Origin: Carex sylvatica
Lineage: Eukaryota; Streptophyta; Magnoliopsida; Poales; Cyperaceae
Direction: 5' to 3'
Length of the DNA: 64,000 nucleotides
NCBI GenBank assembly: GCA_964058845.1
Contig: CAXKVR010000036.1
Coordinates: 930,001 to 994,000 of the forward strand
Shown in pieces: positions 9,234 to 63,664 of the stretch (positions within the stretch are counted from its first letter, which is position 1; the number at the start of each line of letters is the position of its first letter). The notes beneath the pieces are model-generated. The model was given only the letters and a program-made list of their open reading frames with translations, was not told where the DNA came from and did no database searches. The position numbers and the translations under genes are program-made.

Positions 9234-9640
9234 GGGACCGGCTAATTTGCTGCTGGCAGCATTTCTGCCCGAGGTGCTGCCGGCCGTTTTTTTATTTTGT
9301 GATATCCAAACAACAAATCCAAACCGTTAGATGTTTAATCCATATTATAATCTACTTGGAGACCAAATTTTACATTTTTTTGAATTTGTTTACTATTTAT
9401 TAAGCTGGTTTGAAAACTTCTGATTTCAATGCTGCAGAAATTTACTGAAATCAGCAGTTTTCAAACCAGCTTAATAAATAGTAAAAAAATTCAAAAAAAT
9501 ATAAAATTTGATCTCCAAGTAGATTATAATATGAATTAAACATCTAACGGTTTGGATTTGTTGTTTGGACATCACAAAATAAAAAAACGGCCGACAGCAC
9601 CTCGGACAGAAATGCTGCCAGCAGCAAATTAGCCATTCCC
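9234..9640. mobile_element. (TA)n-associated palindromic element, terminus type A, copy 1
   Basis: A near-perfect 407-bp palindrome. The outer part of each arm reads GGGA(C/A)(C/T)GGCTAATTTG followed by 'ctgctggcagca' and 'gaggtgctgc'. The inner part is the common core ('ggagaccaaattttacattttt', 'tttactatttattaag'). The centre contains 'ctgcag'. It is flanked by TATA-rich microsatellite on both sides and has no coding capacity. Confidence 0.85.
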
Positions 9641-9791
9641 AATATATGTATATAAGTATGTAAGTATAAATTATTTTCTTAATTATGATTTATAAAAAAA
9701 ATTCAGAATTATATTATACATATATTACATTATATTATATATACATATATATACATATACATATGTTATATTTTATTATATATACATATAC

Positions 9792-10218
9792 AGAGGTTGG
9801 CTACTATGCTTATATAAGCATATCCCCACATATGCTTATAACTCATTTTTGTACTTTCAATGTCCAAATGGTCGATCTGAACCGTTCATCTTGTTCTCCA
9901 TATTAATATGTGCTTGGAAACTAAATTTTACATTTTTCTGAATTTTTTTACTATTTATTAAGCCACTTTGAAAATCGCTGATCCAACGGTGGCTGCACAA
10001 AACAGTAAAATCAGCAGCCACCGTTGGATTAATAACTTTCAAAGTGGCTTAATAAATAGTAAAAAAATTCAGAAAAATGTAAAATTTAGTTTCCAAGCAC
10101 ATATTAATATGGAGAACAAGATGAACGGTTCAGATCGACGATTTGGACATTGGAAACACAAAAATGAGTTATAAGCATATGTGGGGATATGCTTATATAA
10201 GCATAGTAGCCAACCTCT
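9792..10218. mobile_element. (TA)n-associated palindromic element, terminus type B, copy 1
   Basis: A 427-bp palindrome starting AGAGGTTGGCTACTATGC and ending with its complement. The arm carries 'tgcttatataagcatatcc', itself a small hairpin, then 'aaatggtcgatctgaaccg' and the common core. The unpaired centre is 'cacaaaacagtaaaatca'. It lies in a TA-rich tract of the foldback MULE. The two small reading frames over it are mirror images of each other, as expected from a palindrome, and are not genes. Confidence 0.88.
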
Positions 10219-10487
10219 ACATATACATATATACATACATATACATATATTACATATACATAAAAATAGAGATGCTACACAGATCGCCGCATGAAAATAA
10301 CTGTAAAAAAAAAAAAAAAATTGGGACCGGAGGAGCCACCCGGTCCCAAAAAAAAAAAAAAAAAAAAAAAATGGGACCGGAGGGCTCCTCCGGTTCTTGT
10401 GGTTTTTGAAAAAAAAAAAAACAATCATGCTGGATTACTAAAATTAATTTTTTTAATTATGGTTTATCAAAAAAATTCGATATCTAG

Positions 10488-11955
10488 AGTCCAAGTAATT
10501 TACGGAACAAATTTTAAGGTTCTTTATTATTGGCGACGTCGCTTTTATATAACATTAACATGTCAATGATTAATTTGTACTATGCCTCAGAATTTGTAGT
10601 ACAGAATTTATGACATTAGTACTTTTGTTATATAATGAAACTGATATTCCATTTGTAATCAACCAAATTAAAGTTATACAATGGAATCAGGAGCGGACTC
10701 ACATAGTCCCTGGAGCAGGTGTTTTTTTTTTAATTTTGAGTTTTAGTGGATTTATAGGTCCCGACCGACTTCCTTTTTTTTAAAATTTTTTGTTCTCTCT
10801 GGATGTTTGATTTATAATTCGGATTCAATTTAGAGCTAAAATTGAAATAAATTTGTTGAATTTTGATTGGTAATTAGAATTATAAGTTAGAGTATCAGAA
10901 ATTACAAATTAAAGTATTAGAAAGTATAAGTTAAAAATATTATTTTTTATCGAGTACTTAATTAGTTAATTGATTTAAATCCGATTCGATATTTTTTTGT
11001 CTCTCTTGACAAAAATTCTGAATTTGTCTCTGAATGAAATCCATGAAAACTATAAGAAAGCATGCATCATATCTTAATCAAGGAAACAACATAAAACTTA
11101 CCTAAAATAAACTTATAATTAATTAACGTGTTTATTGATTAGATCATGAATACAACTCGACAAATAAATGGTACAAAGGAATCCCTCCACTTAGAAAGAG
11201 TACCCTCACCAGCGCACTATCACTGTCCCCACCATTAACAACTAATTCACTTTACAGGATATGTAGAAGAGGAGGGGGAAGAATTGAAGTAGTGGGGGTG
11301 GGGCCATGAAAAATAGAATTACATTTATTCGACGGTGACGAGACACGGCCAGGCATCTCAGATATCGGCTGCGGTCGGTCGATATGTGTATGTGTCGTCA
11401 TGGCACATTGTTTTCTCTCCTCCATCTTTGCCCCTCTCCATTAATTATTGTTGCATATCACATCCCTTTTTATTTTATGTGGCGAAAAGAAAAAGGAAAT
11501 ACCAAATTTACAAAGAAGAATTAGAGGCATTGTGGACACAAAGAGATGAAAACAGAAAAAGAATAAAAACAGTATTCTTTTTGTGGTTGAGAATTTTTTT
11601 TTTTTAAATAGCGAATTTTAAGTGTGTTTGGATAGTCAAAGAAACAGTGCAAGAATAGTGATATTTAAAATAGTGTATGAGATAATAAATTTAGTGCAAA
11701 GAAAAAAGTGTTAGTTCGAACAGTGTAAAATTAAAGAGGGCTAATTTGAGCTCTTCGGAATATATAATAGAAATAATATTTAGATTGTATGATTCGAAAT
11801 AGTAATTGTTTGATTGGTTAACCAATAGTCTCTAATTCGAACTATATATTCTGAATAGCAACAGTTGTTTGAATTGCCATCCTAATTCAGAATAATAACA
11901 AGTTAGTGCTATCTGAATGGATCTAAATATATATATATCCAAATTAACAGTATAA
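10488..11955. other. AT-rich intergenic DNA, no gene seen
   Basis: A segment near 10685-11060 ('aggagcggactcacatag ... gaatttgtctctgaatg') resembles transposon debris but I cannot classify it. The small frame at 11335-11607 has no recognisable features. Confidence 0.4.
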
Positions 11956-12187
11956 GGGCCTATTCGGCGGACAGAGGGGAATAGAAATGAGAATGTGATT
12001 GCAAAAATTTTAAATTGATTTTTACTGTTTACGTGGAGAAAAAAAATTCAATCTAAGTGAAAATTTAGAAATGAGAATGTGATTGCAAAAATTTTAAATT
12101 GATTTTTACTATTCACGTGGAGAAAAAAAATTCAATCTAAGTGAAATTTTTTTTTTCCCACATAAATAGTAAAATTCGAACAAGGCC
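11956..12187. mobile_element. hAT-like MITE containing an 84-bp tandem duplication
   Basis: The ends read GGGCCTATTCG on the left and, inverted, TGGCCTTGTTCG on the right, similar to many short hAT-type elements. The interior has two near-identical 84-bp units (11983-12066 and 12067-12150) starting 'agaaatgagaatgtgattg'. A further 'cccacataaatagtaaaattcgaa' stretch mirrors the unit end. I found no convincing TSD. Confidence 0.55.
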
Positions 12188-12758
12188 AAAGAGTTTCACA
12201 TATATTTTACCTCTTTTTACTGAGACAAAAATTAAATTGGCAAAATTGAGACATTAATTGACGAATCTTTTTTTCTCTTTTCCGGTTTCTAAAACTTCTA
12301 AAACAACAATATACTTAGTTTTAAGAGTTTCACAGTTTCACAGTTTTTTTTTATTTTTTTTTATTTTAAACACATGTATACAGCAGTTTAACTGAATTCA
12401 TGCATTCTGAGAATCAAAGTGCATAAAGAATAATTTTATATGTAGCATTTGGTGCCCTACCCTTTTGTGTTTTTGTGTTTGTCTTTATAAAAAAAAAATT
12501 ACAATACTTTCAGCCGTCCCAATTAGAGGTTTGCTAAAACCCAGCCGGACTCAATTCGGACCGGTTCGCCTGTGCTCGGTACTCGGTACTCGGGGTATCC
12601 ATATTTGAGTCCAGGTATAGACGGGTAAATGGGTGCGGGTATTAAACGGACCGGTCACGGTTTTTTGAAAAAAAAAATCCGAGCTAACCCGAACCGGATT
12701 GAACCCGTGCCCGCCCGTTGTACCCATTTTTTTTTTAATTAATTTTTTTTCAAAAAAT

Positions 12759-12781
12759 CCCCCCCCCCCCCCCCCCCCCCC
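12759..12781. repeat. 23-base C tract
   Basis: Twenty-three consecutive C residues within the hAT subterminal region, with a second short C run near 12818-12826. Low complexity; its length may be unreliable. Confidence 0.95.
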
Positions 12782-13312
12782 GAACAGTTCATATCAAAGA
12801 AAAAAAAAATTCGGAAATCCCCCCCCTACTCTCCTAAAAATTTCAAATACTTGAGTTCTTTAAACTTAAAAAAATGAGTCAATTAATATTTTTTTTCATT
12901 ATAAACATATAACATTTTAATAGAAAAATAATCAGTTTTTTTTGGACAACACTAAAATATTAATGAGATTTCATATTAAATTTAATTACAAACTTACGGG
13001 CGGCATCTCAAAAATAGCCACAAATATTGTTATTAACGTTGTTAAACTTTAATTGTTTTCTATATCTCAAAAATAGCCACAAATGTGAATAAAATAGTAA
13101 CTTGGTGTACTATTAAGTTTTAATATGGTGATAATATTTAGTGGTTAGATTGACATTTGATAAATTTTTTTTAATAATCATTAGCATTCATCTTATAAAT
13201 ATATGTATATACATATATTATACATGTATTATATATTATATTATATTATATTATATTATATATACATATATCATATTACATATACATTTATATATATATA
13301 TATATATATATA

Positions 13313-13716
13313 GGGAATGGCTAAATTGCTGCTGGCAGCATTTTGGCCCGAGGTGCTGCCGGCTGTTTTTTTATTTTGTGATATCCAAACAACAAATCCA
13401 AACCGTTAGATGTTTAATCCATATTATAATCTACTTGGAGACCAAATTTTACATTTTTCTGAATTTTTTTACTATTTATTAAGCTGGTTTGAAAACTGCT
13501 GATTTCAGTAAATTTCTGCAGCATTGAAATCAGCAGTTTTCAAACCAGCTTAATAAATAGTAAAAAAATTCAGAAAAATGTAAAATTTGGTCTCCAAGTA
13601 GATTATAATATGGATTAAACATCTAACGGTTTGGATTTATTGTTTGGATATCACAAAATAAAAAAACAGCCGGCAGCACCTCGGGCCGAAATGCTGCCAG
13701 CAGCAATTTAGCCAAC

Positions 13717-13719
<3 letters not shown>
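13313..13719. mobile_element. (TA)n-associated palindromic element, terminus type A, copy 2
   Basis: Same structure as the type A copy at 9234. The left end is GGGAATGGCTAAATTGC. The outermost bases of the right end read inward as GAGGTTGGCTAAATTGC, which is the type B terminal sequence on a type A arm. The central loop is in the opposite orientation to copy 1, so it inserted the other way round. (TA)n lies on both sides. Confidence 0.85.
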
Positions 13720-13752
<33 letters not shown>

Positions 13753-13863: not shown

Positions 13864-14263
13864 GAGGAGGGATCAACTTACAATATTTTTTGAGTTACAA
13901 CAAATTACAACAAGCATTTTCTACATTTTTAAAGTCCAAATCATTGATCCAAACCGTTAGATGTGATCTCCACAATAAAATGTGCTTGGAGACCAAATTT
14001 TATATTTTTTGGAATTTTTTTACTATTTATTAAGATGGGTATAAAATTCAATGGTCTGAATTTGACTAGTTTTTGTACCCATCTTAATAAATAGTAAAAA
14101 AATTCCAAAAAATGTAAAATTTGATCTCCAAGCACATTTTATTGTAGAGATCACATCTAACGGTTTAGATCGACGATTTGGACTTTGAAAATGTAGAAAA
14201 TACTTGTTGTAACTTGTTGTAACTTGTTGTAACTCAAAATATGTTATAACTTGATCCCTCCTC
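13864..14263. mobile_element. (TA)n-associated palindromic element, terminus type C
   Basis: A 400-bp palindrome with ends GAGGAGGGATCAA, a 'gttacaacaaattacaacaa' stretch (repeated as 'aacttgttgt' on the right), then the common core. The centre is 'caatggtctgaatttgac'. Flanked by TATAT microsatellite. No coding capacity. Confidence 0.85.
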
Positions 14264-14289
14264 TACATATATATATATATATATATCAT

Positions 14290-14716
14290 AGAGGTTGGCT
14301 ACTATGCTTATATAAGCATATCCCCACATATGCTTATAACTCATTTTTGTGCTTCCAATGTTCAAATGGTTGATCTGAACCGTTCATCTTGTTCTCCATA
14401 TTAATATGTGCTTGGAGACCAAATTTTACATTTTTCTGAATTTTTTTACTATTTATTAAGCCACTTTGAAAATTATTAATCCAACGGTTGCTGCTGATTT
14501 TACTGTTTTGTGCAGCCACCGTTGGATCAGCGATTTTCAAAGTGGCTTAACAAATAGTAAAAAAATTCAGAAAAATGTAAAATTTAGTCTCCAAGCACAT
14601 ATTAATATGGAGAACAAGATGAACGGTTCAGATCGACCATTTAGACATTGAAAGCACAAAAATGAGTTATAAGCATATGTGGGGATATGCTTATATAAGC
14701 ATAGTAGCCAACCTCT
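14290..14716. mobile_element. (TA)n-associated palindromic element, terminus type B, copy 2
   Basis: Nearly the same sequence as the type B copy at 9792, also 427 bp, with AGAGGTTGGCTACTATGC ends and the central loop reversed relative to that copy. Flanked by (TA)n. Confidence 0.88.
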
Positions 14717-17384: not shown

Positions 17385-20300
17385 CTACGTACCTGAACTG
17401 TCGAATAACTCAGGATATTGCTCGTGAATTTTCGTTTCGAGTTCCCATGTTGCCTCTTTTTCCGAGTGTCGACCCCATTGTACTAAAACAAGTCTAATCG
17501 TTCGATTTCTTAACCTTTGCTCTTTTCTATCAAGTATTCGCATTGGTTCTTCTTTATAGGCCAAATTCTCATTAAAGTATAAGTCAGAATGGTCGATGCA
17601 GTGAGATGGATCTCGTACATATTTTCGAAGTTGTGACACATGAAACACCGGGTGTACCCGGTCCAAGGTTGGAGGCAATGCAAGCTCGTAAGCTACAAGT
17701 CCCACTCGGTTCAGAATCTGAAAGGGACCGATATACCGTGGACTTAGCTTACCCGATACTCCAAACCGATGTACTCCTCTAACCGGAGATACTCGGAGCC
17801 ACACATGATCACCTTCTTGAAACTCTAAAGGTCTTCGATGTACATCAGCATATCTCTTTTGTCGATCTTGAGCTGATTTGAGTCGGCTCAAGATAACCTG
17901 TGTCTTCTCTGCTGCCTCTTGTATCAATTCTGGTCCTGTGGACGGATGAGTACCCGCCGGACCCCACCACAACGGTGTACGACAAATCTCTCCAGTAAGC
18001 GCTTCTAATGGTGGCATCCCGATACTTGAGTGATAACTGTTGTTGTAGGCAAATTCAACCAAATGCAAATGGTCGAGCCAAGACCCTCGAAAGCTCAAAG
18101 CACACGCTCGAAGCATGTCTTCCAATGTCTGGATTGTTCTTTCTGACTGTCCATCAGTCTGCGGATGATGTGCGGTGCTGAACCTCAGTTTCGTACCCAT
18201 ATTTTCTTGGAAACTTTTCCAAAAATGCGAAGTGAACCTGGTATCTCGATCAGATATAATTTCTCTTGGACATCCATGATATTTAACGAAAAATTTCAGA
18301 AACAAGTTGGCTAACGTTCGACCCGATGTATCAGGTCCGAGTGGAATAAAATGTGCCACCTTCGTTAATGTATCCACAATAACCCATATGGTATCGTGTC
18401 GGCCCACTGTCCTCGGAAAACCAGATACGAAATCCATTGCAATAACTTCAAATTTACCTCTCTTCTTATTCAGCGGTTGAAGTAACCCAGCTGCCTTTCG
18501 TCGATCAGCCTTCACTTGCTGACAGACTTGACATTTCTCAACGTACCTTGTCACATCCCTTTTCATGTTCGGCCACCAGAAATACCGCTTCAGAGTTTGA
18601 TACATTTTAACTTCGCCGGGATGGATCGTGTATCCCGAATCATGTGCTTCGGATAGAACTAGGGTCTTCAAGTCTGAATCTTCAGGAATGCATATGCGGT
18701 TGCCAAACCGCAAGATACCCTCGTCATCAAGTCTAAATGGAGTGTCTCGGTCCGATTCTACATGTTCTCGAAATTTCTGACATTTCTGATCTTCGTGCTG
18801 CGCTACCCGTATACGGTCATGTAACTCCGGTCTCACCTCAATAGCAGTAGAAATAATGGACATACCGACCGATTTATTCATACCCGCTTCTTCCTCGAGT
18901 AAGCGAGTTGCAACTGACTTTGCCAATTCGTGCGATGCTCCAACATGTAAATTCATCCTTCTCATTTCTTCAATCAACTGCACTTCACTTGAAATCACGC
19001 TTGCCAGGTTAACCTGATTCTTCCTACTCAACGCATCTGCTACCGCATTAGCTTTGCCCGCATGATACTGAATATCAAGATCGTAATCCTTCATTAACTC
19101 CAGCCACCTTCGTTGTCTCAAGTTCAGTTCCTTCTGAGTAAAGACATACTTTAAGCTTTTATGATCCGTGAAAATCTGGCACTTCACACCATACAAGTAA
19201 TGCCGCCAAATTTTGAGCGCAAAGATCACCGCTGCTAGCTCCAAGTCATGAGTCGGATAGTTCTGTTCATGTGGCCGTAACTGTCGAGAAGCGTAGGCAA
19301 TAACTTGCTCACCTTGCATCAAAACGCAACCCAAACCCGTACGGGATGCATCTGTAAACACCGTGTAGTCCTTTCCAGTTATTGGCATTGTAAGAATCGG
19401 GGCTGACACTAGCCGACTCTTTAACTCCTCAAAACTTTTTTCTTGTTTTTCACCCCAATCGAACTTAACACCTTTATGTAGCAACTCCGTAAGAGGGCGG
19501 GCTAATTGTGAGAATCCAGCTACAAACCTTCGATAGTACCCAGCTAAGCCGAGAAAGCTACGGATCTCTGTAACAGTTGTTGGTCTCTTCCATTCAGTTA
19601 CCGCTCGGATCTTCTCAGGATCTACCGCCAAGCCTTCACCCGAAACTATATGGCCCAAAAATGCCACCTTGTCCATCCAGAATTCGCACTTCGAAAATTT
19701 GGCATAAAGCCGATGATCTCGTAGTCTTTGTAACACCACTTTAAGATGTGCCGCATGCTCCTCATATGAACGCGAATAGATCAGTATATCATCGATGAAG
19801 ACCACCACACTGGAATCCAACAAATCTCTAAACACACGCTGCATGAGATCCATAAAAGCTGCCGGTGCATTTGTCAATCCGAATGGCATGACTAGGTATT
19901 CATAGTGCCCGTACCTAGTACGGAAAGCCGTCTTCTCCACGTCACTTGGATATATACGCAACTGGTGATAACCCGTTCTTAAATCGATCTTGGAATAGAC
20001 CGACGATCCTTGTAGCTGATCAAAAAGATCATCAATCCTAGGCAATGGATACTTGTTCTTCACAGTCACCTTATTCAACTCCCGGTAATCTATGCACAAC
20101 CGCAGAGTTCCATCCTTCTTTCTTACAAACAACACTGGTGCGCCCCATGGAGAAGTACTTGGTCGAACATAGCCTTTCTCCATCATTTCTTCTAATTGCA
20201 CCTTCAATTCTTTTAGCTCAGCCGGAGCCATCCGATAAGGAGCCTTCGAAATCGGGATTGTGCCAGGTATCAAATTAATGTTAAACTCAATTTCTCGCTC

Positions 20301-21968
20301 CGGAGGTAACCCTGAAATCTCATCAGGAAAAACATCAATGTATTCCGAAACAACCGGAATGTTAGATATTTCTGGAATTTCAGTAGCAGTACTCATAACC
20401 CTCACTAAATATGCTGTACATCCCGACTCAATTAAGTGCCTTGTCTCTATTGCTGAAATATACGGTACCACCTCTTTTAATCCTCTACACTTTAATGCAC
20501 ATGTAGCACCACTTGACAATGCGAATTGAACGGTACGGCTCAAACAATCAATCGTAGCTAGGTGTTGAGTTAACCAATCCAAACCCAACAATGCATCATA
20601 CTCAGAAATGTCCATGACCAACATTTCGGCTAGAAAATCCCTTCCATCTACTCTCACTTTCAGGTTTCGGCACGTCCTCGCAATTTGGGTAGTTGAACCG
20701 AGAGGGGTATGAACATCCAATACTCTCCCACTCGATTCCGTTAACCACCCACACTTCTCCACTAACGTACTAGATATGATCGAATTGCTACAACCCGTAT
20801 CAATCAACACATATGCAAGGTGTCCCGAAATAGAAATAGTACCTGCTAGCAAATCAGTCTGAGTAGAAATAGGAATCAACTCGTCTCCTGCATTCGGTAG
20901 CTCTATTGCCTCTACCGCGTGAACACTGGCTCGTCCTCCTGCACGGCCTTCCCTCAACTGTGGTGTAGGGCCTCGACCTCGTAGCGAAGGTATGCCTCCA
21001 CGTCCTCGCCCCTGTGGACCTCTATAACCACCACTGCCACTGCTCCCGGGTGTACTCGAAAAAGTATTTGGGCAATCCTTGATCCAATGATTCTTGCTGC
21101 CACAGCGAAGACAAGTCTGATTGAGGCGACGACACTCAGATTCAGTATGTGGCTTCATGCAAATACGGCACCAAGGTCCAGTAGCTCCCGGGGTAAACTG
21201 AGGTACCGCTATCTGTCCTGTAGGGTATCTAGGGGCTTGAGGTCTAACCCCCGATCCACTCGCTTGCTTTCTTTGATCAAATTTAGGCCTAACATTTCTG
21301 GAGAGGGTTTGTTGCGCACTTCTCTTGAGATATACCTCTGTCTGCTCCGCACATCTCATAAGAGCTGGAACTCCTGCAGCTGTGGAATGATGTATGGCTA
21401 GTGCAATATTCGGGTCCAACCCGTCCAAATACTGCCTCCGGTATCTATCAAGATCCCTTTTCACATCTGGAGCATAGCGGGACAGGTCAAAGAACAAACG
21501 GTTGTACTCTTCTACCGACCTTTCATTCTGTCTTAGGTTCAGGAATTGGCTTCTCAAAGCCTCCCGATGTAAGTCACTCAAGAACTGCTCCCCAAACTTC
21601 TGTTCAAACCATTCCCAAGTAATCTCTCCTTCGCCCCCTTCAAACTCCATTTTAACTCCCTCCCACCAATGCCTACCAGACTTTTCAAGCAATTGTGCGG
21701 CCAACTCCACTTTGTTCACCTCTGGCACCCGGCATAGGGTGAACTTTGCTTTCAGACTCACCATCCATTCTTCCGCAGCCGGATATCCCCCCGACCCATC
21801 AAACCGAGGGGGTGTCAAACGCATAAACGCTTCATATAATTGTCGGAATTCCTCCCCATTTGCTCCAGCCACAGGAGCTGGTCCGCGTTCCAGATTTTCC
21901 GCTCTACGACCTCTTTCATAGGCCGCAATTAACATTTCTCCGAGATCTCTCTCCATTTGACTATTCAA
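17385..21968 (-). CDS. Element 1 gag-pol polyprotein (chromovirus)
   Basis: A 1527-residue uninterrupted polyprotein. The gag domain covers about 45-225. It is followed by two Cys/His clusters: C267-x2-C270-x3-H274-x4-C279 and the standard zinc knuckle C286-x2-C289-x4-H294-x4-C299. The aspartic protease has the DTG at 390-392. Reverse transcriptase spans about 570-770, with the catalytic FIDD at 724-727. RNase H follows, with D873, E910, D935 and D978. Integrase shows H1109, H1116, C1146, C1149 and a D1179/D1240/E1276 (DD35E) triad. A chromodomain-like segment near 1467-1524 ('[11 protein letters not shown]', 'EATWELE') is typical of plant Tekay/Del chromoviruses and is thought to guide integration to heterochromatin. 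Gag and pol share one frame with no frameshift. All catalytic residues I could check are present, so it looks intact. I chose the first Met, 134 bp from the LTR and downstream of the PBS. Confidence 0.97.
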
Positions 21969-22080
21969 TAATCAATAAGTTAATATTTCAATTCACGCAG
22001 TTTAACGTTACCAATCTAACTCTAGACTTACCCCACTCGTTTATCCTATCATGTCTGGTTAGGGTTTAAAAACTAACTTG

Positions 22081-42652: not shown

Positions 42653-42880
42653 CATAACTGTTTAAAAATAATAATTTGGTACACATCTTAATAAATACTA
42701 AAAAAGATTCCAAAAAATATAAAATTTGGTATCCACACACATTCTAATATGGAGATCATGATGAATGATTTGGATCAACTATTTGAACTTTAGAATTATA
42801 AAATTAATTTATAAACATATAGTGCAGTCAAGATGTATCACCATAAAATGATATAATTGGATCTCTCCTCTCCTCTCCTC
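42653..42880. mobile_element. Half of a palindromic element (right arm only)
   Basis: It begins around the palindrome centre ('ttggtacacatcttaataaata') and continues through the common core ('ccaaaaaatataaaatttggt', 'tctaatatggagatca') to a terminus ending 'ggatctctcctctcc', resembling type C. The left arm is absent and hAT satellite sequence takes its place. Confidence 0.65.
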
Positions 42881-46452: not shown

Positions 46453-46878
46453 AGAGGTTGGCTACTATGCTTATATAAGCATATCCCCACATATGCTTAT
46501 AACTCATTTTTGTGTTTTCAATGTCCAAATGGTCGATCGGAACCGTTCACCTTGTTCTCTATATTAATATGTTCTTGGAGACCAAATTTTACATTTTTCT
46601 GAATTTGTTTACTATTTATTAAGCCACTTTAAAAATCTCTGATCCAACGGTGGCCTAACAAAACAGTAAAATCAGAAGTCACCGTTGGATCAGAGATTTT
46701 CAAATTGGCTTAATAAATAGTAAAAAAATTCAGAAAAATATAAAATTTGGTCTCCAAGAACATATTAATATGGAGAACAAGATAAACGGTTCCGATCGAC
46801 CATTTGGACATTGAAAACACAAAAATGAGTTATAAGTATATGTGGGGATATGCTTATATAAGCATAGTAGCCAACCTC
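46453..46878. mobile_element. (TA)n-associated palindromic element, terminus type B, copy 3
   Basis: AGAGGTTGGCTACTATGC ends, the 'tgcttatataagcatatcc' hairpin in each arm and the common core, about 426 bp. It is embedded in (TA)n in the loop of the foldback MULE. Confidence 0.87.
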
Positions 46879-46940
46879 ATATAATATATATATATATATG
46901 TATATATAATATAATATATATATATGTATATATATATATA

Positions 46941-47180
46941 GTAAGGCTATGCTACTTCGCAAATTAAAAGGGAATGTTTTCATTCGCGCTCATATCTATA
47001 GTTTCAAAATCCAAAAAGTCGATCTGAACCGTTAGATGTGATCTCTATATTGAAATGTGCTTGGAGACCAAATTTTATATTTTTCTGATTTTTTTTACTA
47101 TTTATTAAGCCACTTTGAAAATCGCTGATTCAACGTCTACCGTTAAACGAAAACTTAAACTGCATTTTTGAGACACTATG
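46941..47180. mobile_element. Half of a palindromic element (left arm only, distinct terminus)
   Basis: It starts GTAAGGCTATGCTACTTCGC after a (TA)n tract, continues into the common core ('ggagaccaaattttatatttttctg', 'tttactatttattaagccac') and breaks near the centre at 'gctgattcaacgtctaccg'. No right arm follows; a (TATG)n tract and unrelated sequence do. The terminus differs from types A-F. Confidence 0.65.
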
Positions 47181-47187
47181 GTCCTGT

Positions 47188-47272
47188 ATATATATGTGTA
47201 TATGTATGTGTATATATATGTATATGTATATGTATGTATATGTATATGTATGTATATGTATGTATATGATGC
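47188..47272. repeat. (TATG)n/(TATA)n microsatellite
   Basis: Alternating 'tatatg', 'tatgta' units. The tyrosine/threonine/isoleucine frames across it are artefacts. Confidence 0.9.
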
Positions 47273-47279
47273 AATATGG

Positions 47280-47594
47280 TCCTGCGCATGCTTCACGAAA
47301 AGGGGCACAACTTTTGATCCGTCCGTCGGATCGGGCTGAAATTTTGCCATGAGCTCCACAGCCCCAAATCCAAGCTCACTTACTTTCCAGCCCGATCCGA
47401 CCGTCAGATATAGAGTTTTTAGGGTCTTTTATGTATTTTCTGTTTTTTAAGATTTGTATTTAAACAGACGTGATGTCTTTTTGGGATAGTTATTTATTGA
47501 CGTATCAGTTTTTATCAAAGAATTGAGAATCTGTGTGATCTCAGAACCAAATCTATTTTTCCGTTACTTTTTCCAATTTCTTGATCGGTCGTGC
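47280..47594. other. MULE internal sequence, no gene recognised
   Basis: Contains a moderately GC-rich block 'gatccgtccgtcggatcgggctgaaattt ... cagcccgatccgaccgtcag' (about 47317-47408) whose two halves are partly complementary. No coding evidence. Confidence 0.4.
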
Positions 47595-47596
47595 AT

Positions 47597-47778
47597 CAGT
47601 ATATGTATATGTATATGTATGTATATGTATGTATATGTATGTATATGTATGTATATGTATGTATATGTATATATATGTATATGTATATGTATATGTATAT
47701 ATATGTATATGTATATGTATGTATGTGTATATATATGTATGTGTATATATATGTATGTGTATATATGTATATATGTAT
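47597..47778. repeat. (TATG)n-rich microsatellite, about 180 bp
   Basis: Nearly pure 'tatgta' and 'tatatg' units. It opens long artefactual frames on both strands in several phases, all of low complexity. Confidence 0.95.
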
Positions 47779-48196
47779 AGAGTAAGTCTACCATACATTG
47801 CAATGCATAGGCACCTCTATGCATTGGACTATAAATCATGGATTCAAAGTCCAAATGACCGATCCAAACCGTTCATCTTGTTCTCCATATTAATATGTGC
47901 TTGGTGACCAAATTTTATATTTTTTGGAATTTTTTTACTATTTATTAAGTCACTTTGAAAATTACTGATCCAACGGTGCCTTTTGATTTTACTGTAACCG
48001 TTGGATCAGCGATTTTCAATGTGGCTTAATAAATAGTAACAAAATTCCAAAAAATGTAAAATTTGGTCTCCAAGCACATATTAATATGGAGAACAAGATG
48101 AACGGTTTGGATCGGTCATTTGGACTTTGAATATGGTGATTTATAGTGCAATGCATAGAGGTGCTTATGCATTGCAATGTATGGTAGACTTACTCT
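47779..48196. mobile_element. (TA)n-associated palindromic element, terminus type D
   Basis: A 418-bp palindrome with ends AGAGTAAGTCTACCATACATTGCAATGCATAG, then 'gattcaaagtccaaatgaccgatcc', the common core, and 'tgatccaacggtgcc' near the centre. Flanked by 'tatgtata' microsatellite on both sides. Confidence 0.87.
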
Positions 48197-48662
48197 ATAT
48201 GTATATATGTATACCATTGAGGCAATCTAACTATATTTTCTGGTGTATATTTGAATTAATGTCAAATCCTCAATTAGTGTTATTTTTAGACTTATGATAT
48301 CCAACTGACAAATCAAATCAATCAAAGTTATAAAGACTTACGACATCACTTCATAAATATATCAAATGTCTTATTTTTTTTTGATTAAACAAGAAAAAAA
48401 ATTATTCACAAAATTATTTAAATAAAAAATATTAACATCTCTCCCTTAAAAAAAAAAAAAAAAAAAAAAAAAAGGTGGACCGCCCGGACTAGGGGCGGTC
48501 CGCTAGGGGATTGGGGCGCCCCTGTCACGGGCGGTCCGCTAGGGGATTGGGCCGCCCGTGGGCCTGGCGGTCGGGGTAATTTTGACAGAAAATCTAATGT
48601 AGGGGTATCTTTAAAATTATATATTTTTTTTAGGATATTAATAAAAATGACCGCATACTTGT

Positions 48663-51814: not shown

Positions 51815-54800
51815 TTAATTGTCGAATAATTCCGGATACTTTTCTCGGATGCTCTCTTCGAGCTCCCACGTCGCTTCCTTATCGGAATGGCGTCCCCATT
51901 TTACCAACACGAGCCGAATCACTTTGTTTCGTAGCCGTTGCTCTTTTCGATCCAATATCTGCATTGGTTCTTCTTGATATGTCAGATCATCTTGTACGTG
52001 TAAACCCGAGTGATCAATACAATGCGACGGATCTCGCACATATCTGCGTAACTGTGATACATGGAATACCGGGTGAACCCGGTCCAACGCTGGTGGTAGT
52101 GCAAGCTCGTATGCAACCGGTCCAACTCGTCGCAAAATCTGGAACGGCCCAATATATCGAGGACTTAGCTTGCCCGAAACACCAAATCGATGCACGCCTC
52201 TGACAGGCGAAACTCGAAGCCATACGTGATCACTTTCTTGAAATTCCAACGGTCTTCGGTGAACATCCGCATATTTCTTTTGCCTTTCTTGAGCCGACTT
52301 GAGCCGACTCAAAACCATCTTTGTTTTCTCAGCAATTTCTTCTAACATTTGCGGCCCTGTAGGTGGATAGGTACCCGCTGGTCCCCACCACAATGGAGTA
52401 CGGCACTGCTGCCCTGTCAGCGCCTCTTGCGGTGACATACCAATGCTCGAATGATAACTGTTGTTATACGCAAACTCCACCAGATACAAATGATCAACCC
52501 ACGAACCTTGTAAACTTAGCGCGCAGGAGCGCAACATGTCTTCCAGTGTCTGAATGGTACGCTCAGACTGACCGTCAGTCTGAGGATGGTGCGCAGTGCT
52601 GAATCTCAACTTGGTACCCATTGTTTCTTGAAAACTCTCCCAGAAATGAGAAGTGAACCGAGGATCTCGGTCAGAAATAATATTACGCGAGCAACCATGG
52701 TACTTAAACTGATATTTCAGGAACAATTCCGCCAATTCTGGCCCAGATGTCTCAATTCGAAGCGGAATGAAATGCGCTATCTTCGTTAACCGATCCACAA
52801 TCACCCAAACTGTATTATACCTTCCGACAGTTCTCGGAAATCCACTTACGAAATCCATCGTGATTGATTCAAATTTCCTTGTAGGTATTTCCAGCGGTCT
52901 TAGCAATCCTGCTTTTCTCTGCCGATCCGCTTTAACTTGCTGACATATTTGACACTTTTCAACGTACCTTTGTACTTCCTTTTTCATCTTTGGCCACCAA
53001 AAATACTTCTTTAGATCTTGATACATTTTTACCTCTCCCGGATGGATAGCGTATCCCGAATTGTGCGCCTCTGACAAAATCAGATCTTTCAACTCTGAAT
53101 TACTTGGTACACAAATGCGGTCATGAAACCGCAAGATGCCATCTCCTTGAACTTGAAACGGTGAATCTGCGTTTGACTCATAGTGCAGTTTGAATTTCTG
53201 ACATCTCGGATCATTCTGTTGCTCTGCACGAATCTGCTCGTGTAATTCCGATCGGATTTCAACCGCTGCTAGCACAACCGACGCCATTGCAGTTGCGCTA
53301 GTCCCAACCTCACTTCTATTACATTTAGATGCAACTTCCAACGCTAATTCGCGTGACGCGCCAACATGTATTTCCATTCTGCGCATTTCCTCGAGAAGAT
53401 GAGTTTCACTTGTAATCACCGACGCCAGGTTTACCTGACTCTTTCTGCTCAATGCATCTGCTACACTGTTCGCTTTTCCTGCATGATACTGGATATCCAA
53501 GTCATAGTCTTTCATCAATTCTAACCACCGCCTTTGTCTCAAATTTAACTCCTTTTGCGTGAAGATGTATTTCAGACTTTGATGATCAGTATAGATTCGG
53601 CATTTCACGCCATACAAGTAATGCCGCCAAATTTTCAGCGCAAATATCACTGCCGCTAACTCCAAATCATGCGTCGGGTAGTTTTGCTCGTGCGGTCGCA
53701 ATTGCCGAGATGCGTAGGCAATTACATGATCATCTTGCATCAATACGCAACCCAAACCCAATCGAGAAGCATCGGTATAAACCGTGTACTCCTTATCAGC
53801 AGTCGGCATAGCAAGGACTGGCGCGGATACCAGCCGACTCTTCAATTCCTCAAAACTTTTATCTTGCGCGGTACCCCAATCAAATTTCACGCCTTTGTGC
53901 AATAATTTTGTAAGTGGCGCGGCTAACCGCGAAAACCCGAGTACAAATCTCCTGTAGTACCCGGCTAACCCCAGAAAGCTGCGAATTTCAGTAACTGTCT
54001 CCGGCCTTTTCCAATCTGTCACAGCCCGAATCTTTTCGGAATCTACCGCTAACCCTTTTTCAGAAACCACATGCCCCAAAAATGCAACTTCCTCCAACCA
54101 AAATTCACATTTCGACAACTTTGCGAATAACTGATGTTCACGCAATCTTTGCAACACAATTCTAAGATGTACCTCATGTTCTTCTCGCGAACGCGAATAC
54201 ACCAGTATATCATCAATGAACACCACAACTGTAGAATCCAACAGATCGTGAAACACACGGTGCATCAAGTCCATGAACGCTGCCGGTGCGTTCGTCAGCC
54301 CAAATGGCATAACCAGGTATTCATAATGCCCGTACCTTGTACGGAACGCTGTCTTATCCACATCGCTCGGCCGTATTCTCAGCTGGTGATACCCTGTTCT
54401 CAGATCAATCTTTGAATATATTGAGGATCCCTGTAACTGATCAAACAGATCGTCAATCCGAGGTAACGGATATTTATTTTTCACAGTTACCTTGTTCAGC
54501 TCGCGGTAATCAATACATAACCGCAATGTTCCATCTTTCTTCTTGACAAATAATACTGGCGCGCCCCATGGCGACGTGCTAGGTCTGATAAATCCACTCT
54601 CCAACATATCTTCCAATTGCGCCTTAAGTTCTTTCAGTTCTGCCGGTGCCATTCGATACGGCGCTTTTGAAATCGGTGTTGTGCCCGGTACCAATTCGAT
54701 ACCGAACTCCACTTCTCGTTCAGGTGGCAACCCTAAAATCTCTTCCGGAAATACATCCACAAATTCTGAAACCACCGGAATGGTGCTGATCTCTGGAACT

Positions 54801-56593
54801 GCCGCAGACGCATAAACCACGGCCGCCAAGTAAGCATCACACCCTGATTCTAACAAATGTTTCATCTCTACAGCCGAAATACACGGTGTTAGTTTCCCAA
54901 TTTCTCTACAATTGAGTATGCAAGACATACCTCTTGAATTCGCGAAATGGATCCGACGATGCGGACAATCAATAGTAGCAGCGTGTCTCGTCAACCAGTC
55001 CATACCCAATAACACGTCGTAGCCGGAAATCTCCATTACCAACAAGTCCGCCTCGAACTCTCTTCCATCTATCTTAATCTTTCGGTTTCGGCATAAAGTG
55101 ATTCCTTGATCAGTTGAACCGAATGGGGTTTGAACATTTACAACTTGATTACACGTCTCAATTGGCCAATTCCCTTTTTCTACCAATTCCCTCGACACAA
55201 TAGAATGGCTGCACCCCGTATCAATCAAACAATACGCATCCTGATCAGATATAGAGAGTATACCTGTCATGACGTCAGTCTGGCCATCTCCCAGCGCAGT
55301 TGCAGCGTTGCGCGAAGTTCCAGCAATGTTAAGCGCATTCGCCGCCGCCCTGCCATCGTTCCTGCCGACGCTGCCGGCACCGCTAACCCTGCCGACACTA
55401 CCGGCGCTACTAGCCCTGCTAGCGCTAGCCCCGCCAGCTTGAGATGCACCACGTCCACGCCACGTTGGCGCTCCACGCCCAACGCTAGCGGACCCTCCCG
55501 CGCTACCAGCGCCTCGCATCCTCATAAGCGCATTCGGGCACTCCCTCGCCCAATGTCCCGCGCTACCACATATGAAACAAGCGCTAGTCTTGCGCCTACA
55601 CTCAACCTCATCGTGCGCTTGATTGCACGATCGGCACCATTGCGAAGGAATCACCGGTCTAAAACCCGGCATAGAGGTCTGTCTAAACGGAGGTCTCGGC
55701 GCCATATTTGACCGAGGGGGTCTAGCAAATGATGGTCCTCCCCTCGACCTCGACATTTGCCCACTCTGAGCATCCTTCTGTTTTACATTTCTTTCGGTTA
55801 GTTGCTCTTTCCTCCGCTTACCATGCATCTCTATCTGCTCTGCATGATCCATCATAGATTGCAACTCCGTAGCAGTCGGAGTATCAACAATCATCGATAT
55901 ATTTCCATCCAAACCATCCAAATAGTGCCTGTGATACCTTACCGCGTCATTCTGAATATCTGATGCATAACGCGATAACGCCAGAAACTCACTATTGTAA
56001 TCCCCCACCGGACGCCCATTTTGCCTCAATTCCAGAAACTTCCTCCGCAACGCTTCACGTTGAATATTGCTCAGAAACCTCCGGTTGAACTGCTGTTCAA
56101 ACCATTCCCACGGAATTCTCGCTTCCTCCCCGACATAGCTGCGTCGGGCTCCGTCCCACCAAAACCTTGCGTCACCCTCCAATTGCTGCTCAGTTACCTC
56201 TACTTTGTCTTCCTCAGGTGCGCGGCATAAATTCAGCTTTGCATTAATCTGCGCCAGCCATTCCTCGGCTGCCGCATACCCGCCGGTTCCATCATAGCGC
56301 GGCGGATTCAAGCGCAGAAATGAATCATACAACCTTCTAAACTCTTCGGGTGCACCACCGTGAACCACCGGTGCTGCATCCCGCATCTCCGCTTGGCGAC
56401 CTCTCTCGTAGGCCGCAATCAGCCGGTCATCTATGTCCCGGTCTCTACCTGGCGCTCCTCCAACGCCACCAGCTCCCTCAGCACCAGCTGGACCAGCCCC
56501 AGCCTGATCCGCAGCCGGCTCGATAATCAATTCCGTATTCCTCCGAGGTCTGCCTCTACCTCGGTGTGGTGTTTCCATTTTCTGAATAAACAA
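51815..56593 (-). CDS. Element 2 gag-pol polyprotein (chromovirus)
   Basis: A 1592-residue uninterrupted polyprotein. The N-terminus is basic then glycine/alanine-rich (to about 55). Gag covers about 80-270. Two Cys/His clusters follow: C320/C323/H327/C332 and the zinc knuckle C339-x2-C342-x4-H347-x4-C352. A serine/glycine/alanine-rich linker (about 360-420) leads to the protease DTG at 458-460. Reverse transcriptase has FIDD at 792-795. RNase H has its first Asp near 941. The integrase zinc region is near 1177-1217 and its D/D/E triad near 1247, 1308 and 1344. A chromodomain-like end lies at about 1535-1590. From protease onward it parallels element 1 at a constant offset of 68 residues, but gag and the linker are clearly different. 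The first Met is 56593; Met6 is an alternative start. Probably a functional polyprotein. Confidence 0.97.
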
Positions 56594-56714
56594 AGTTAGT
56601 TTATAACATTCGATATTCCTTACTTATCATACGAAATTCGCATAGTCGCGACGACCCCATTAATACGTATACCACTCTCGTATCCAAACAAGTCTGGTTC
56701 AGGTTCTAAACCAT

Positions 56715-59452: not shown

Positions 59453-60400
59453 TTTCAATGTACATTATTCATATGGCAATTGTTGGTTGTCAATTTTGGC
59501 GATTCAAAAAAATTCAGGGTTTTCAACAACCGTCTCTCCAACCCCTTTCCCTCCCCTCTTTCTCTCTCCATTCGTCAAATTTTTTAAAAATATCATACTC
59601 CTAAAAATAATAAACCAAAACGTCACGTTTTTTGAAAAATTTGAATTTTGACACGGCCGCATCCTCTAGATGCGACCACTCCTTTTTTTCGTTCAGATTG
59701 AACGGCCACACGAGAAGAAGAAGAAGAAAAAGGTGGCCGCTTCCCCAAGATGCGGCCATGCTATTTTTTGAAATTTCACAGAATCGTGGTATTTTGATTT
59801 ATTATTTTCTGAGGTATGGTATTTTTAAAAATTTCGATTCCATTCGACTCTATCATTTCTATTTCTTGTAGTTCTTATTCTGAAATAATACTTTCTCTCC
59901 CGATTCTACCTTCTCGAGTTGAGAGGAGAACAAAGAAGAGGAGAGGAATCGAAGTCAAGCGAAGATGATCTGAGTCAAGAGTACGGTATTATCAGAATTC
60001 AGAACGTAGAGATCCTATCTCAATTAGAGCATGACGTTGAGTAGATTTGGTCGTTGTCGGAGTGTGACGGCGATTAAAGAAGCAGATCTGATCGTGGAGC
60101 GAGATGACGATTAAAGTACCAGGGTGATCAACATATCGATCAGAGCGTAACAGTGATGATCTGATCATTAACACAGCTGTAATCGAATAAGCATGATAAT
60201 TAAGGTATTATGGTGATTACGAGAGGATTATAATATTATATTAATTTAGAGGATTTTACAAGAATAAATAAATTAATATTGGAATTATGATAATTTGATT
60301 TATTATAATATATTTTTTATTAATAAAATTATTAGTAGATATTTAATTAAAGCTAGTCATTTCGAAATTTTATCATTTATGAAATAGTGAATTAGCATAT
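59453..60400. other. Intergenic DNA with a GC-rich inverted motif, no gene recognised
   Basis: Near 59653-59760 there are two related blocks, 'cggccgcatcctctagatgcgacca' and 'ggtggccgcttccccaagatgcggcca', partly in mirror order, with a short GAAGAAGAAG run between. The frames at 59388-59651 and 59632-59871 have no recognisable features. Confidence 0.4.
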
Positions 60401-60429
60401 TCTATAAACCTCTCAATTCGTATTTGACA

Positions 60430-60625
60430 AATATTTTTAAGCATAATAGTAAAGAACTTTCAAAAAATATAAAATTTAGTCTCCAAGCACATTTTAATAT
60501 AGAGCGTCACATTTTAATATGGAGAACACGCTGTGCAGTTCAAATTAATTATTTAGATTTTGAAATTACAAAAACTCACTTGATATAACGAACTGTTGTA
60601 TACCAATGTTGGTATATTATCAAAC
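60430..60625. mobile_element. Half of a palindromic element (right arm only)
   Basis: It begins near a palindrome centre and runs through 'caaaaaatataaaatttagtctccaagcacattttaatat' of the common core to 'ttatatatata'. It contains a short duplicated 'cattttaatat(a/g)gag'. The left arm is missing. Confidence 0.55.
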
Positions 60626-60626
60626 T

Positions 60627-60645
<19 letters not shown>

Positions 60646-60666
<21 letters not shown>
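60646..60666. repeat. (GA)n tract after (TA)n
   Basis: About ten GA units directly bordering the next palindromic element. Confidence 0.9.
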
Positions 60667-60670
<4 letters not shown>

Positions 60671-61071
60671 GGCTATGGTACATTGTAATGTATAGCCTTC
60701 TCTGTACATTGCACTATAAATCACGTGATTCAAAGTCCAAATAACCGATCCAAACCATTCATCTTGTTGTCCATATTAATATGTGTTTGGAGACCAAATT
60801 TTATATTTTTTTAGAATTTTTTTACTATTTTTTTAGATTTATTGAAAATCATTGTTTTTAGACAAATCTGGACCATAAAAAAACAGCGATTTTCAATAAA
60901 TCTAAAAAAATAGTAAAAAAAATTCCAAAAAATGTAAAATTTGGTCTCCAGACACATATTAATATGGATAACAAGATGAACGGTTTGGATCGGTTATTTG
61001 GACTTCGAATCACGTGATTTATAGTCCAATATACAGAGAAGACTATACATTGCAATGTACCATAGCCCATC
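60667..61071. mobile_element. (TA)n-associated palindromic element, terminus type E, copy 1
   Basis: A 405-bp palindrome with ends GATGGGCTATGGTACATTG, an inner 'aaatcacgtgattcaaagtcc' hairpin and the common core with 'ttttttagatttattgaaaatc' at the centre. Flanked by (GA)n/(TA)n on the left and TATATCTATC repeats on the right. Confidence 0.87.
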
Positions 61072-61112
61072 TATATATATCTATCTATCTATCTATATAT
61101 ATATATATATAT

Positions 61113-61518
61113 AAGAATATGCTAGCATACTATGCGTAGCATAGAGGGCCTTCGTGCAACGGCTCAATATTCAACTTTTCAAAATTCTAACGGTCGATTT
61201 GAATCATTCATCTTGTTCTTCATATTAATATGTATTTGGAGACCAAATTTTACATTTTTTGGAATTTTTTTACTATTTTTTTAGATTGATTGAAAATTAC
61301 TATTTTCAGCAAATCTAGACCATAAAAAAAAAAAAATTCAATAAATCTAAAAAAATAGTAAAAAAATTCCAAAAAATGTAAAATTTGGTCTCCAAATACA
61401 TATTAATATGAAGAACAAGATGAATGATTCAAATCGACCATTAGGATTTTGAAAAGTTGAATATTGAGCCGTTGCACGAAGGCCCTCTATGCTACGCATA
61501 GTATGCTAGCATATTCTT
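61113..61518. mobile_element. (TA)n-associated palindromic element, terminus type F, copy 1
   Basis: A 406-bp palindrome with ends AAGAATATGCTAGCATACTATGC, 'ggccttcgtgcaacggctcaat' in the outer arm and the common core inside. (TA)n on both sides. Confidence 0.87.
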
Positions 61519-61557
61519 ATATATATATATATATAGATAGATAGATATATATATATA

Positions 61558-61964
61558 GATGGGCTATGGTACATTGCAATGTATAGTCTTATCTGTATAT
61601 TGCACTATAAATCACGTGATTCAAAGTCCAAATAACCGATCCAAACCGTTCATCTTGTTATCCATATTAATATGTGTTTGGAGACCAAATTTTACATTTT
61701 TTGGAATTTTTTTTACTATTTTTTTAGATTTATTGAAAATCGCTATTTTTTTATTGTCTAGATTTGTCTGAAAACAATGATTTTCAATAAATCTAAAAAA
61801 ATAGTAAAAAAATTCCAAAAAATGTAAAATTTGGTCTCCAAACACATATTAATATGGAGAACAAGATGAATGGTTCAAATCGACTGTTAGGATTTTGAAA
61901 AGTTGAATATTGAGCCGTTGCACGAAGACCCTCTATGCTATGCATAGCATGCTATCATATTCCT
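61558..61964. mobile_element. Chimeric palindromic element: type E left arm, type F right arm
   Basis: The left end is GATGGGCTATGGTACATTG (type E) with 'aaatcacgtgattcaaagtcc'. The right arm carries the type F sequences 'gattttgaaaagttgaatattgagccgttgcacgaag' and a 'ctatgcatagcatgctatcatattcc' end. Only the inner core pairs; the outer 120 bp of the two arms are unrelated. It lies between a type F element and a type B element. Confidence 0.85.
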
Positions 61965-61978
61965 ATATATATATATAT

Positions 61979-62404
61979 AGAGATTGGCTACTATGCTTAT
62001 ATAAGCATATCCCCACATATACTTATAACTCATTTTTGTGTTTTCAATGTCCAAATGGTCGATCAGAACCATTTATCTTGTTCTCCATATTAATATGTTC
62101 TTGGAGACCAAATTTTATATTTTTCTGAATTTTTTACTATTTATCAAGCCACTTTGAAAATCGCTGATCCAACGGTGGCTTAACAAAACAGTAAAATCAG
62201 AAGCCACCGTTGGATCAACGATTTTCAAAGTGGCTTAATAAATAGTAAAAAAATTCAGAAAAATATAAAATTTAGTCTCCAAGCACAAATTAATATGGAG
62301 AACAATATGAACGGTTCTGATCGACCATTTGGACAATGAAAACACAAAAATGAGTTATAAGCATATGTGGAGATATGCTTATATAAGCATAGTAGCCAAC
62401 CTCT
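61979..62404. mobile_element. (TA)n-associated palindromic element, terminus type B, copy 4
   Basis: Ends AGAGATTGGCTACTATGC on the left and AGAGGTTGGCTACTATGC on the right (read inward), with the same inner hairpin and core as other type B copies. About 426 bp in TA-rich sequence. Confidence 0.87.
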
Positions 62405-62441
62405 ATATATATATATATAGATAGATAGATAGATATATATA

Positions 62442-62845
62442 GATGGGCTATGGTACATTGCAATGTATAGTCTTCTTTATACATTGCATTATAAATCACG
62501 TGATTCAAAGTTCAAATTATCGATCCAAATCATTCATCTTGTTGTCCATATTAATATGTGTTTGGAGACTAAATTTTATATTTTTTGAAACTTTGTTACT
62601 ATTTTTTTAGATTTATTGAAAATCATTGTTTTCAGACAAATCTGGACCATAAAAAAACAGCGATTTTCAATAAATCTAAAAAAATAGTAAAAAAGATTCC
62701 AAAAAATGTAAAATTTGGTCTCCAAACACATATTAATATGGATAACAAGATAAACAGTTTGGATCAGTTATTTGGACTTTAAATCACGTGATTTATAGTG
62801 CAATGTACAGAGAAGACTATACATTGCAATGTACCATAGCCCATC
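62442..62845. mobile_element. (TA)n-associated palindromic element, terminus type E, copy 2
   Basis: 404 bp, nearly the same as copy 1 at 60667, including the centre 'cagacaaatctggaccataaaaaaacagcg'. Flanked by GATA/TATC-type microsatellite. Confidence 0.87.
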
Positions 62846-62895
62846 TATATATATCTATCTATCTATCTATCTATATATATATATATATATATATA

Positions 62896-63657
62896 GGAAT
62901 ATGCTAGCATGCTATGCGTAGCATAGAGGGCCTTCGTGCAACGGCTCAATATTCAACTTTTCAAAATCCTAACGGTCGATTTGAATCATTCATCTTGTTC
63001 TTCATATTAATATGTATTTGGAGACCAAATTTTACATTTTTTGAAATTTTTTTACTATTTTTTTAGATTTATTGAAAATTACTATTTTCAGCAAATCTAG
63101 ATCATAAAAAAACAGCAATTTTCAATAAATCTAAAAAAATAGTAAATAAATTCAAAAAAATGTAAAATTTGGTCTCCAAACACATATTAATATGGAGAAC
63201 AAGATGAACGGTTCAAATCGACCGTTAGGATTTTGAAAAGTTGAATATTGAGCCGTTGCATGAAGGTCCTCTATGCTTATAACTCATTTTTGTGTTTTCA
63301 ATGTCCAAATGGTCGATGTGAACCATTAGATGTGATCTCTATATTGAAATGTGGTTGGAGACCAAATTTTACATTTTTCTGAATTTGTTTACTATTTATT
63401 AAGCTACTTTGAAAATCGCTAATCCAACGGTGGCTTAACAAAACAGTAAAATCAGAAGCCACCGTTGGATCATAGATTTTCAAATTGGCTTAATAAATAG
63501 TTAACAAATTCAGAAAAAATGTAAAATTTGGTCTCCAAGCACATTTCAATATAGAGATCACATCTAACGGTTCAGATCGACCATTTAGACATTGGAAACA
63601 CAAAAATGAGTTATAAGAATATGTGAAAATATGCTTATATAAGCATAGTAGCCAACA

Positions 63658-63664
<7 letters not shown>
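62896..63664. mobile_element. Fused palindromic elements: type F joined to a truncated type B-like element
   Basis: 62896-63275 is a type F element whose right end stops at 'gaaggtcctctatgc'. At that point it passes directly into 'ttataactcatttttgtg', the inner part of a type B left arm. The B-like element then continues to its own right end at about 63664 ('aagcatagtagccaacatctct'). Its core uses 'gttagatgtgatctctatattgaaatgtg', as in the type C and half-element cores. The two are joined at the shared 'ctatgctta' with the intervening termini and (TA)n deleted. Confidence 0.8.

Follow-up and report, generated by a model that had tools for sequence, protein, structure and literature searches.

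How a family of near-perfect palindromes can carry many different ends, with both arms of most copies carrying the same end, is the question raised by a 64,000-nucleotide stretch of the Carex sylvatica genome (contig CAXKVR010000036.1, positions 930,001 to 994,000; hereafter the window). Fifteen elements of one family, each a palindrome or half of one, were recognized in the window, together with two remnants. The elements are near-complete palindromes of about 400–430 bp with terminal inverted repeats (TIRs), and no reading frame of at least 150 amino acids was found inside the window elements. We consider it likely that they are non-autonomous miniature inverted-repeat transposable elements (MITEs) of Mutator type, derived from Mutator-like elements (MULEs), which target (TA)n, and that their terminus types arose mainly by descent, accompanied by recombination of blocks and episodic homogenisation of the arms. 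The unusual feature of the family is that variation and recombination take place while both arms keep matching.

An inverted repeat was found at each of the eleven positions at which a first-pass annotation of the window had reported a palindrome, with arms of 77–233 nt that were 88–97% complementary. In total, the window contained 29 pairs of inverted repeats of at least 60 nt, and among the 25 pairs listed some join neighbouring elements. Comparison of the arms of the window elements bore out the common inner arm described in that annotation; the seating in TA-rich microsatellites and the existence of fused and half copies were likewise recovered, the latter as a fusion of a type D with a type B element at 63279 and a one-armed type G copy at 46940–47190. 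Genome-wide searches were performed on 63.98 Mb in 950 contigs, the window included. The core motif, allowing at most two mismatches, matched 6,657 times (3320 and 3337 by strand) and its reversed control 0 times, which excludes a chance origin of the palindromes. At two core matches per element, this number would correspond to some 3,300 elements. A 408-base element used as the query gave at least 104 genome matches (40 of 1295 candidates scored), mostly on both strands per element.

The elements were characterized in a sample of 315,546 bases in 76 stretches, which comprised the window, C1 loci found by the core pattern, loci found with type A and type B queries, and MULE loci. Because loci were fetched with A and B queries, this sample is non-random and enriched in these two types. 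A profile search with the inner arm returned 204 arms, 189 of them full, which could be paired into 84 elements; both arms were complete in 82 of these. To define terminus types, the outermost 60 bases were clustered, and clusters of evident kinship were then joined by eye.

Arm anatomy and the matching of the two arms

About 15 terminus types (A to O) and some singletons were present in the sample. The earlier description of at least six outer modules as unrelated stood only in part. Types C and F were 85.7% identical over 84 bp, and graded intermediates were seen between C and F and, by eye, within D, G, and I. Among 15 representatives, the between-type score for bases 1–18 was -0.40 compared to -5.63 for shuffles, while bases 19–36 and 37–54 scored -5.42 and -5.74 compared to -6.15. 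The next 112 bases behind this variable zone were 78.6% identical between types and 63.7% after shuffling. Instead of an unrelated outer 70–120 bp, only about bases 19–54 come near the shuffled level, and the first approximately 18 bp are conserved among types. Each arm therefore consists of a conserved tip of approximately 18 bp, which is presumably a cleavage or binding site, a fast subterminal zone of approximately 45 bp, and a slow inner arm of approximately 110 bp leading to a variable centre.

The arm starts in this comparison were picked by type-specific patterns, a procedure that favours tip conservation. When the starts were set automatically, the order was the same with a much smaller contrast: the tip scored 4.74 compared to 4.10 for shuffles (standard deviation 0.11), and the two intervals behind it scored 4.35 and 4.33 compared to 3.98 and 4.08 (standard deviation 0.11). 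With the kin types F and K left out, the three values were 4.68, 4.17, and 4.23, compared to 4.13, 3.94, and 4.09.

The fast zone could be a hypervariable cassette of approximately 45 bp between conserved stretches, changing in step on both arms. Such a cassette may serve recognition or the evasion of silencing, through transposase specificity or escape from small interfering RNAs, and would be rewritten on one arm and copied to the other via a hairpin. We regard this suggestion as tentative and rather unlikely; if true, arm-to-arm conversion in a eukaryotic MITE would be recorded naturally in these elements. Hairpins within the variable zone were rejected as a general rule, because they were uneven, with z below -2.2 in five of the 15 types (A, B, H, K, and N). 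The mean z was -1.07 for the variable zone and -0.22 for the inner arm.

Homotypy was counted on the 82 complete elements, of which 72 had the same terminus type on both arms. Five were heterotypic (J/K in four cases and C/D in one), one was fused, one had lost a tip, and three were unclassified. The earlier statement that both arms carry the same module is accordingly valid for 72 elements but not for the window element at 61559..61960, a chimera with a type C left arm and a type D right arm. The chimera's left arm shared 97.1% identity with the right arm of the adjacent C element and 89.2% with that element's left arm; for the chimera's right arm, the closest sequences were D arms within this array (94.6 and 93.1%). 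The J/K elements recur in either orientation on two C1 stretches, which suggests that an element with two unlike ends can still be amplified. The J and K termini show a partial relationship to each other (local score 17 compared to 6.5 shuffled, 0/1000).

The outer 60 bases were 92% identical between arms of one type and 60% identical between types. The arms were presumably homogenised at some time, because otherwise arms of the same type would be as different as those of different types. Own left and right arms also showed higher identity than partners shuffled within their class (0.940 compared to 0.917; 0/500 shuffles, 65 elements). Nevertheless, when 81 elements (162 arms) were compared, the own partner was the nearest arm in only 38 of the 162 arms, with B at 3/69, F at 1/18, A at 10/18, L at 6/8, and D at 4/9. 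Continuous gene conversion in every copy was rejected on this ground; it fails for B and F, where the own partner is seldom nearest, whereas A, L, and D fit it better. The arm identities point to homogenisation in episodes, with amplification afterwards; homogenisation may be more recent in A, L, and D. The claim that a change of terminus must have been copied to both arms thus survives as a need over the long run but not as a continuous process in the abundant types.

Descent and exchange of terminus types

An inner-arm tree was built from 137 of 187 arms over 121 columns, with eight unclassified arms omitted and B reduced from 72 to 30 arms. The terminus label changed 21 times on this tree, compared to a minimum of 15 and a mean of 95.3 for shuffled labels; types B, F, and I accounted for four changes each. 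These results indicate that the terminus type mostly tracks the core lineage and that free exchange of ends is not the rule. The first-pass annotation had put forward one core with exchangeable termini. Most types were found to have their own core variant, which comes close to each terminus forming a lineage with a private core, while exchange at a lower level was retained.

This lower-level exchange was evident in the inner arm. The pairwise homoplasy index (PHI) test for recombination, run with our own script on 187 inner-arm rows, gave p = 0.020, 0.004, and 0.003 for windows of 5, 10, and 15 sites, respectively. Blocks of 26 columns were identical between otherwise distinct types. In the type consensuses, G equalled H in the first block and B2 and J in the second, and H equalled B1, D, and F in the second. 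One centre was common to C, D, and L, and another to B, F, G, and I. Two block haplotypes, distinguished by 9 of 24 bases, were associated with terminus B; among the 34 B/B elements, 26 had haplotype one on both arms, three had haplotype two on both, and five were mixed, compared to 9.3 mixed elements expected by random pairing (P = 0.024; 4/33 and P = 0.012 with a tandem duplicate counted once).

Exchange was also visible at the level of whole arms and elements. The C/D chimera and the D–B fusion at 63279, in which both outer ends at the joint are missing, are both expected from recombination among neighbouring elements. Arrays of elements occur in the window as well as on C1. In the window array at 60614..63277, the C-D pair at 60614-61493 is duplicated at 62389-63277 with 92.7% identity, which represents a duplication at the level of the array.

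Insertion sites, transposase, and rival explanations

The flanks were examined in 58 of the 84 paired elements, namely those with both tips set; in the others a tip was unset by any type pattern or the flank was too short. Microsatellite flanked 44 of the 58 elements on both sides, 11 on one side, and three on neither side. A 9-bp direct repeat (at least 8 of 9 matches, at most 1 base of slack) was detected in 12 of the 14 elements that were not microsatellite-flanked on both sides, compared to 21 of 182 in a control with mispaired flanks. Clean cases were found in L089, L073, and L087. In L087, one type B element sits within the end of a second, flanked by a perfect 9/9 duplication; L088 has the same arrangement with matching flanks and is probably the same event duplicated. 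Outside type B, a duplication was recognized by eye in one type L pair (C1_357407). A filled and an empty site could also be compared, since the repeat at 46896-48507 of the window is paralogous to C1:246054-249077, and F is present only in the window copy and B only in the C1 copy. This presence/absence pair and the 9-bp repeats are predicted by Mutator-type transposition into TA-rich tracts. A TA duplication of the Tc1/mariner type was ruled out, because the duplications are 9 bp long.

The search for an autonomous partner had a partial scope. MULE domains were scored at no fewer than 150 places in the genome (305 candidates), some with long open frames. None of 30 MULE loci, taken with approximately 1.5 kb on each side, and of seven longer stretches had family ends on both sides of the transposase, although ends lying further out would be missed. 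The annotation, which had noted no obvious transposase, had come to the same outcome. Family arms beside a MULE in L054, L070, and L071 were read as neighbouring MITEs. Several candidates were rejected. On C28, two type B ends separated by 4.47 kb belong to distinct B elements, and the other sequence lying between these includes a NAM-domain exon, which is in keeping with a plant genome. The core matches next to MULEs of 665 and 900 aa are neighbouring MITEs, because the MULE copies align with one another only inside ends like CCGACATTTTTAAAAATACCC or CCGAAATTTTTATAAATACCC. On C317, two MULE copies in inverted orientation are bordered on either side by short TA runs but lack family ends, and type G could not be maintained as a longer one-ended element, as its copies lie inside a larger repeat whose other end is not definable. 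For the 716-aa MULE family, the single stretch examined (L072) had no family arms. Two arrangements were observed at MULE loci: near base 145 of L071 (C190), a 900-aa MULE copy starts near the centre of a family palindrome, as if inserted there, and C317:14956-20058 (L059, L060) holds a perfect inverted MULE duplication of 1,827 bases, which may be an assembly artefact.

Taken as a Mutator-type MITE family, the elements would be moved by a transposase supplied in trans. Insertion produces 9-bp target duplications in type B, and the seats are mostly (TA)n and related microsatellites. The common inner arm and tip suggest that one old palindromic ancestor gave rise to the terminus types, which would have diverged mostly by descent. 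Clustered copies would have exchanged inner-arm blocks across types through recombination or gene conversion, which would also have made the chimeras. The palindrome would be re-homogenised episodically, so that the arms match, and founders would then be amplified by transposition, keeping small arm differences.

Several observations weigh against this account. The 14 elements in the duplication count are all of type B, and TA-rich compound repeats such as TA/TACA surround several of them; the tandem copies in L080 make up both misses. The inner-arm alignment is 121 columns long, and its tree leaves 79 of 126 inner branches open; some block consensuses were derived from few arms (G 6, H 5, J 4, and K 4), and the sample is non-random as described above. 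Automatic arm starts weaken the tip signal and leave bases 19–36 somewhat above the shuffles. The low total of arms nearest to their own partner is another such point, since B and F dominate it, with higher values in A, L, and D. Finally, the partial search of MULE loci yielded no autonomous element with family ends.

The exchange of termini could instead have been the main process, with a common core repeatedly gaining unrelated ends by recombination and the new end being copied to the second arm through a hairpin or arm conversion. The C/D chimera and the four J/K elements, the blocks common to several types, the B elements with haplotype 1, haplotype 2, or one of each, homotypy above random pairing, and the greater similarity of own arms than of shuffled partners would all fit such a process. 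It is possible but doubtful, because the terminus type tracks the core lineage, the tips are related across types, intermediates in D, G, and I are graded, J and K are partly related, and an own partner is so seldom the nearest arm. Alternatively, each terminus type might be driven by its own autonomous MULE, the similar inner arm reflecting common ancestry or convergence with no exchange. Most types do have their own inner-arm variant and MULE domains are abundant, but the PHI signal, the identical 26-column blocks in otherwise distinct types, and the absence of such ends on both sides of the MULEs searched make this explanation unlikely.

The arrays themselves might have been formed by tandem or segmental duplication and homologous recombination mediated by the microsatellites, rather than by repeated transposition, an idea related to the circular intermediates considered for SaTar elements in the accessible part of that report. 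The repeated C-D pair and the L080 element, which recurs exactly in tandem, are in line with it. The 9-bp duplications, the presence of copies on many contigs, and the self-insertion with its perfect duplication speak against it, and we consider it very improbable as the origin of the arrays. The tandem pair in L080 (C24:23100-24250) consists of two apparently identical type B elements in direct orientation with ATATA between them, representing either a recent duplication or an effect of assembly. The elements also have a practical bearing, as a case where MITE "families" named after their ends partly merge into a single reticulate network, a point that concerns the building of repeat libraries. 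If the arm architecture holds genome-wide, the family would offer a test of how near-perfect palindromes persist during sequence turnover, with thousands of copies, visible intermediates that have one haplotype per arm, and the arms of other copies as a built-in control.

Known relatives and the elements of the window

Elements of this kind have already been published for pineapple, guayule, rice, and Medicago. Ac-mMITE-1 and -2 of pineapple are described as abundant, clustered Mutator-related MITEs in (TA)n, with first and last bases mostly GA and TC, and flanking (GA)n was attributed to slippage; copies outside the microsatellite have 9/10-bp duplications, and according to the accessible text no autonomous element was found (PMC8449440). 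The Carex elements resemble them in their abundance, terminal bases, (TA)n seats, (GA)n flanks, clusters, and 9-bp duplications outside the microsatellite, and the partial search likewise yielded no autonomous element. Compared by description, the pineapple elements form two families of 510–570 bp (TIR 140–180) and 210–270 bp (TIR 40–70) in the available account (PMC8449440), whereas the Carex elements are approximately 400–430 bp, nearly full palindromes, with approximately 15 terminus types.

SaTars of guayule and rice are reported as non-autonomous MULEs in microsatellites, in clustered arrays of different types; some have 9–10-bp duplications, and the four guayule families have TIRs of 150–180 bp in elements of 380–425 bp (PMC5907723, as far as accessible). 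In the SaTar arrays described there, no element interrupts another (PMC5907723). The Carex family differs in the B-in-B insertion of L087 and in arms that recombine into chimeras. MuTAnT of Medicago truncatula is presented as a foldback MITE of 292 bp with 144-bp TIRs, located in TA repeats and of Mutator origin, with 9-nt duplications for 14 of 218 copies outside perfect (TA)n (PMC4486113). In the available part of that account, an autonomous Jittery-like element is known and there are only two subfamilies (PMC4486113), while in Carex the MULE loci searched yielded no such element and the types number approximately 15. The comparison with Micron of rice made in the annotation appears apt as an analogy of niche and Mutator-type assignment, as Micron is a small element in (TA)n (Akagi, 2001) that was later assigned to MULEs, according to the accessible portions of two later reports (PMC5907723; PMC12550479).

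A conserved-variable-conserved arm, a reticulate inner arm, recurrent heterotypic elements, and self-insertion are not met in the Ac-mMITE, SaTar, and MuTAnT accounts as far as their text was available. In the accessible literature, with subscription journals mostly uncovered, nothing was found on end exchange or arm conversion in plant microsatellite MITEs. In bacteria, Tn3-derived miniature elements are described as producing mosaic non-autonomous transposons (PMC4133298, in the portion available).

Within the window, the palindromic elements were delimited by their inverted repeats. Type A elements lie at 9234..9640, assigned by clustering, and at 13313..13720, where the inverted repeat is 97% complementary and relatives on other contigs reach at most 98% identity. 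Type B is represented at 9792..10219, with a 9/9 duplication in a compound TA/TACA repeat; at 14290..14714; at 46453..46878, with a 9/9 duplication in a TA-rich flank; and at 61980..62402. The single type E element (13864..14267) was searched with its outer 63 bases, which gave at least 40 matches, including itself, from 217 candidates. Type F (47777..48196) was recognized by two inverted-repeat pairs and is absent from the paralogous C1 repeat. In the array, type C elements at 60667..61075 and 62442..62845 accompany type D elements at 61111..61516 and 62896..63278, the latter without its right tip at the fusion; the truncated type B element joined to it (63279..63660), identified by inverted repeat and typing, has no left tip. 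The two remnants are a degenerate single arm on the minus strand at 42673..42795, identified by a mid-zone match, and a stretch at 60445-60512.

The one-armed type G copy lies on the plus strand, its right limit being uncertain. The larger dispersed repeat that contains it (46896-48507) also includes a GTAT-rich minisatellite, and relatives of it lie on other contigs. At 10305-10420 of the window, as well as in L081, L087, and L088, small palindromic units are bordered by long runs of A or T. Several such units, for example TATCTGGATCGGTT..., occur in a row in L081, and they apparently represent another miniature repeat tied to homopolymer tracts. On C613 and C404, papain-like cysteine protease matches recur at a spacing of 4,253 bases, with eight and three matches, respectively. 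In the incomplete genome of 63.98 Mb, a bromelain query matched at 49–50% over approximately 190 residues, with 71% in one piece of 38 residues, values that give no hint of pineapple as the host. The window also contains, on the minus strand, two stop-free Ty3-type polyprotein frames with chromodomain matches, at 17388-21971 and 51818-56623.

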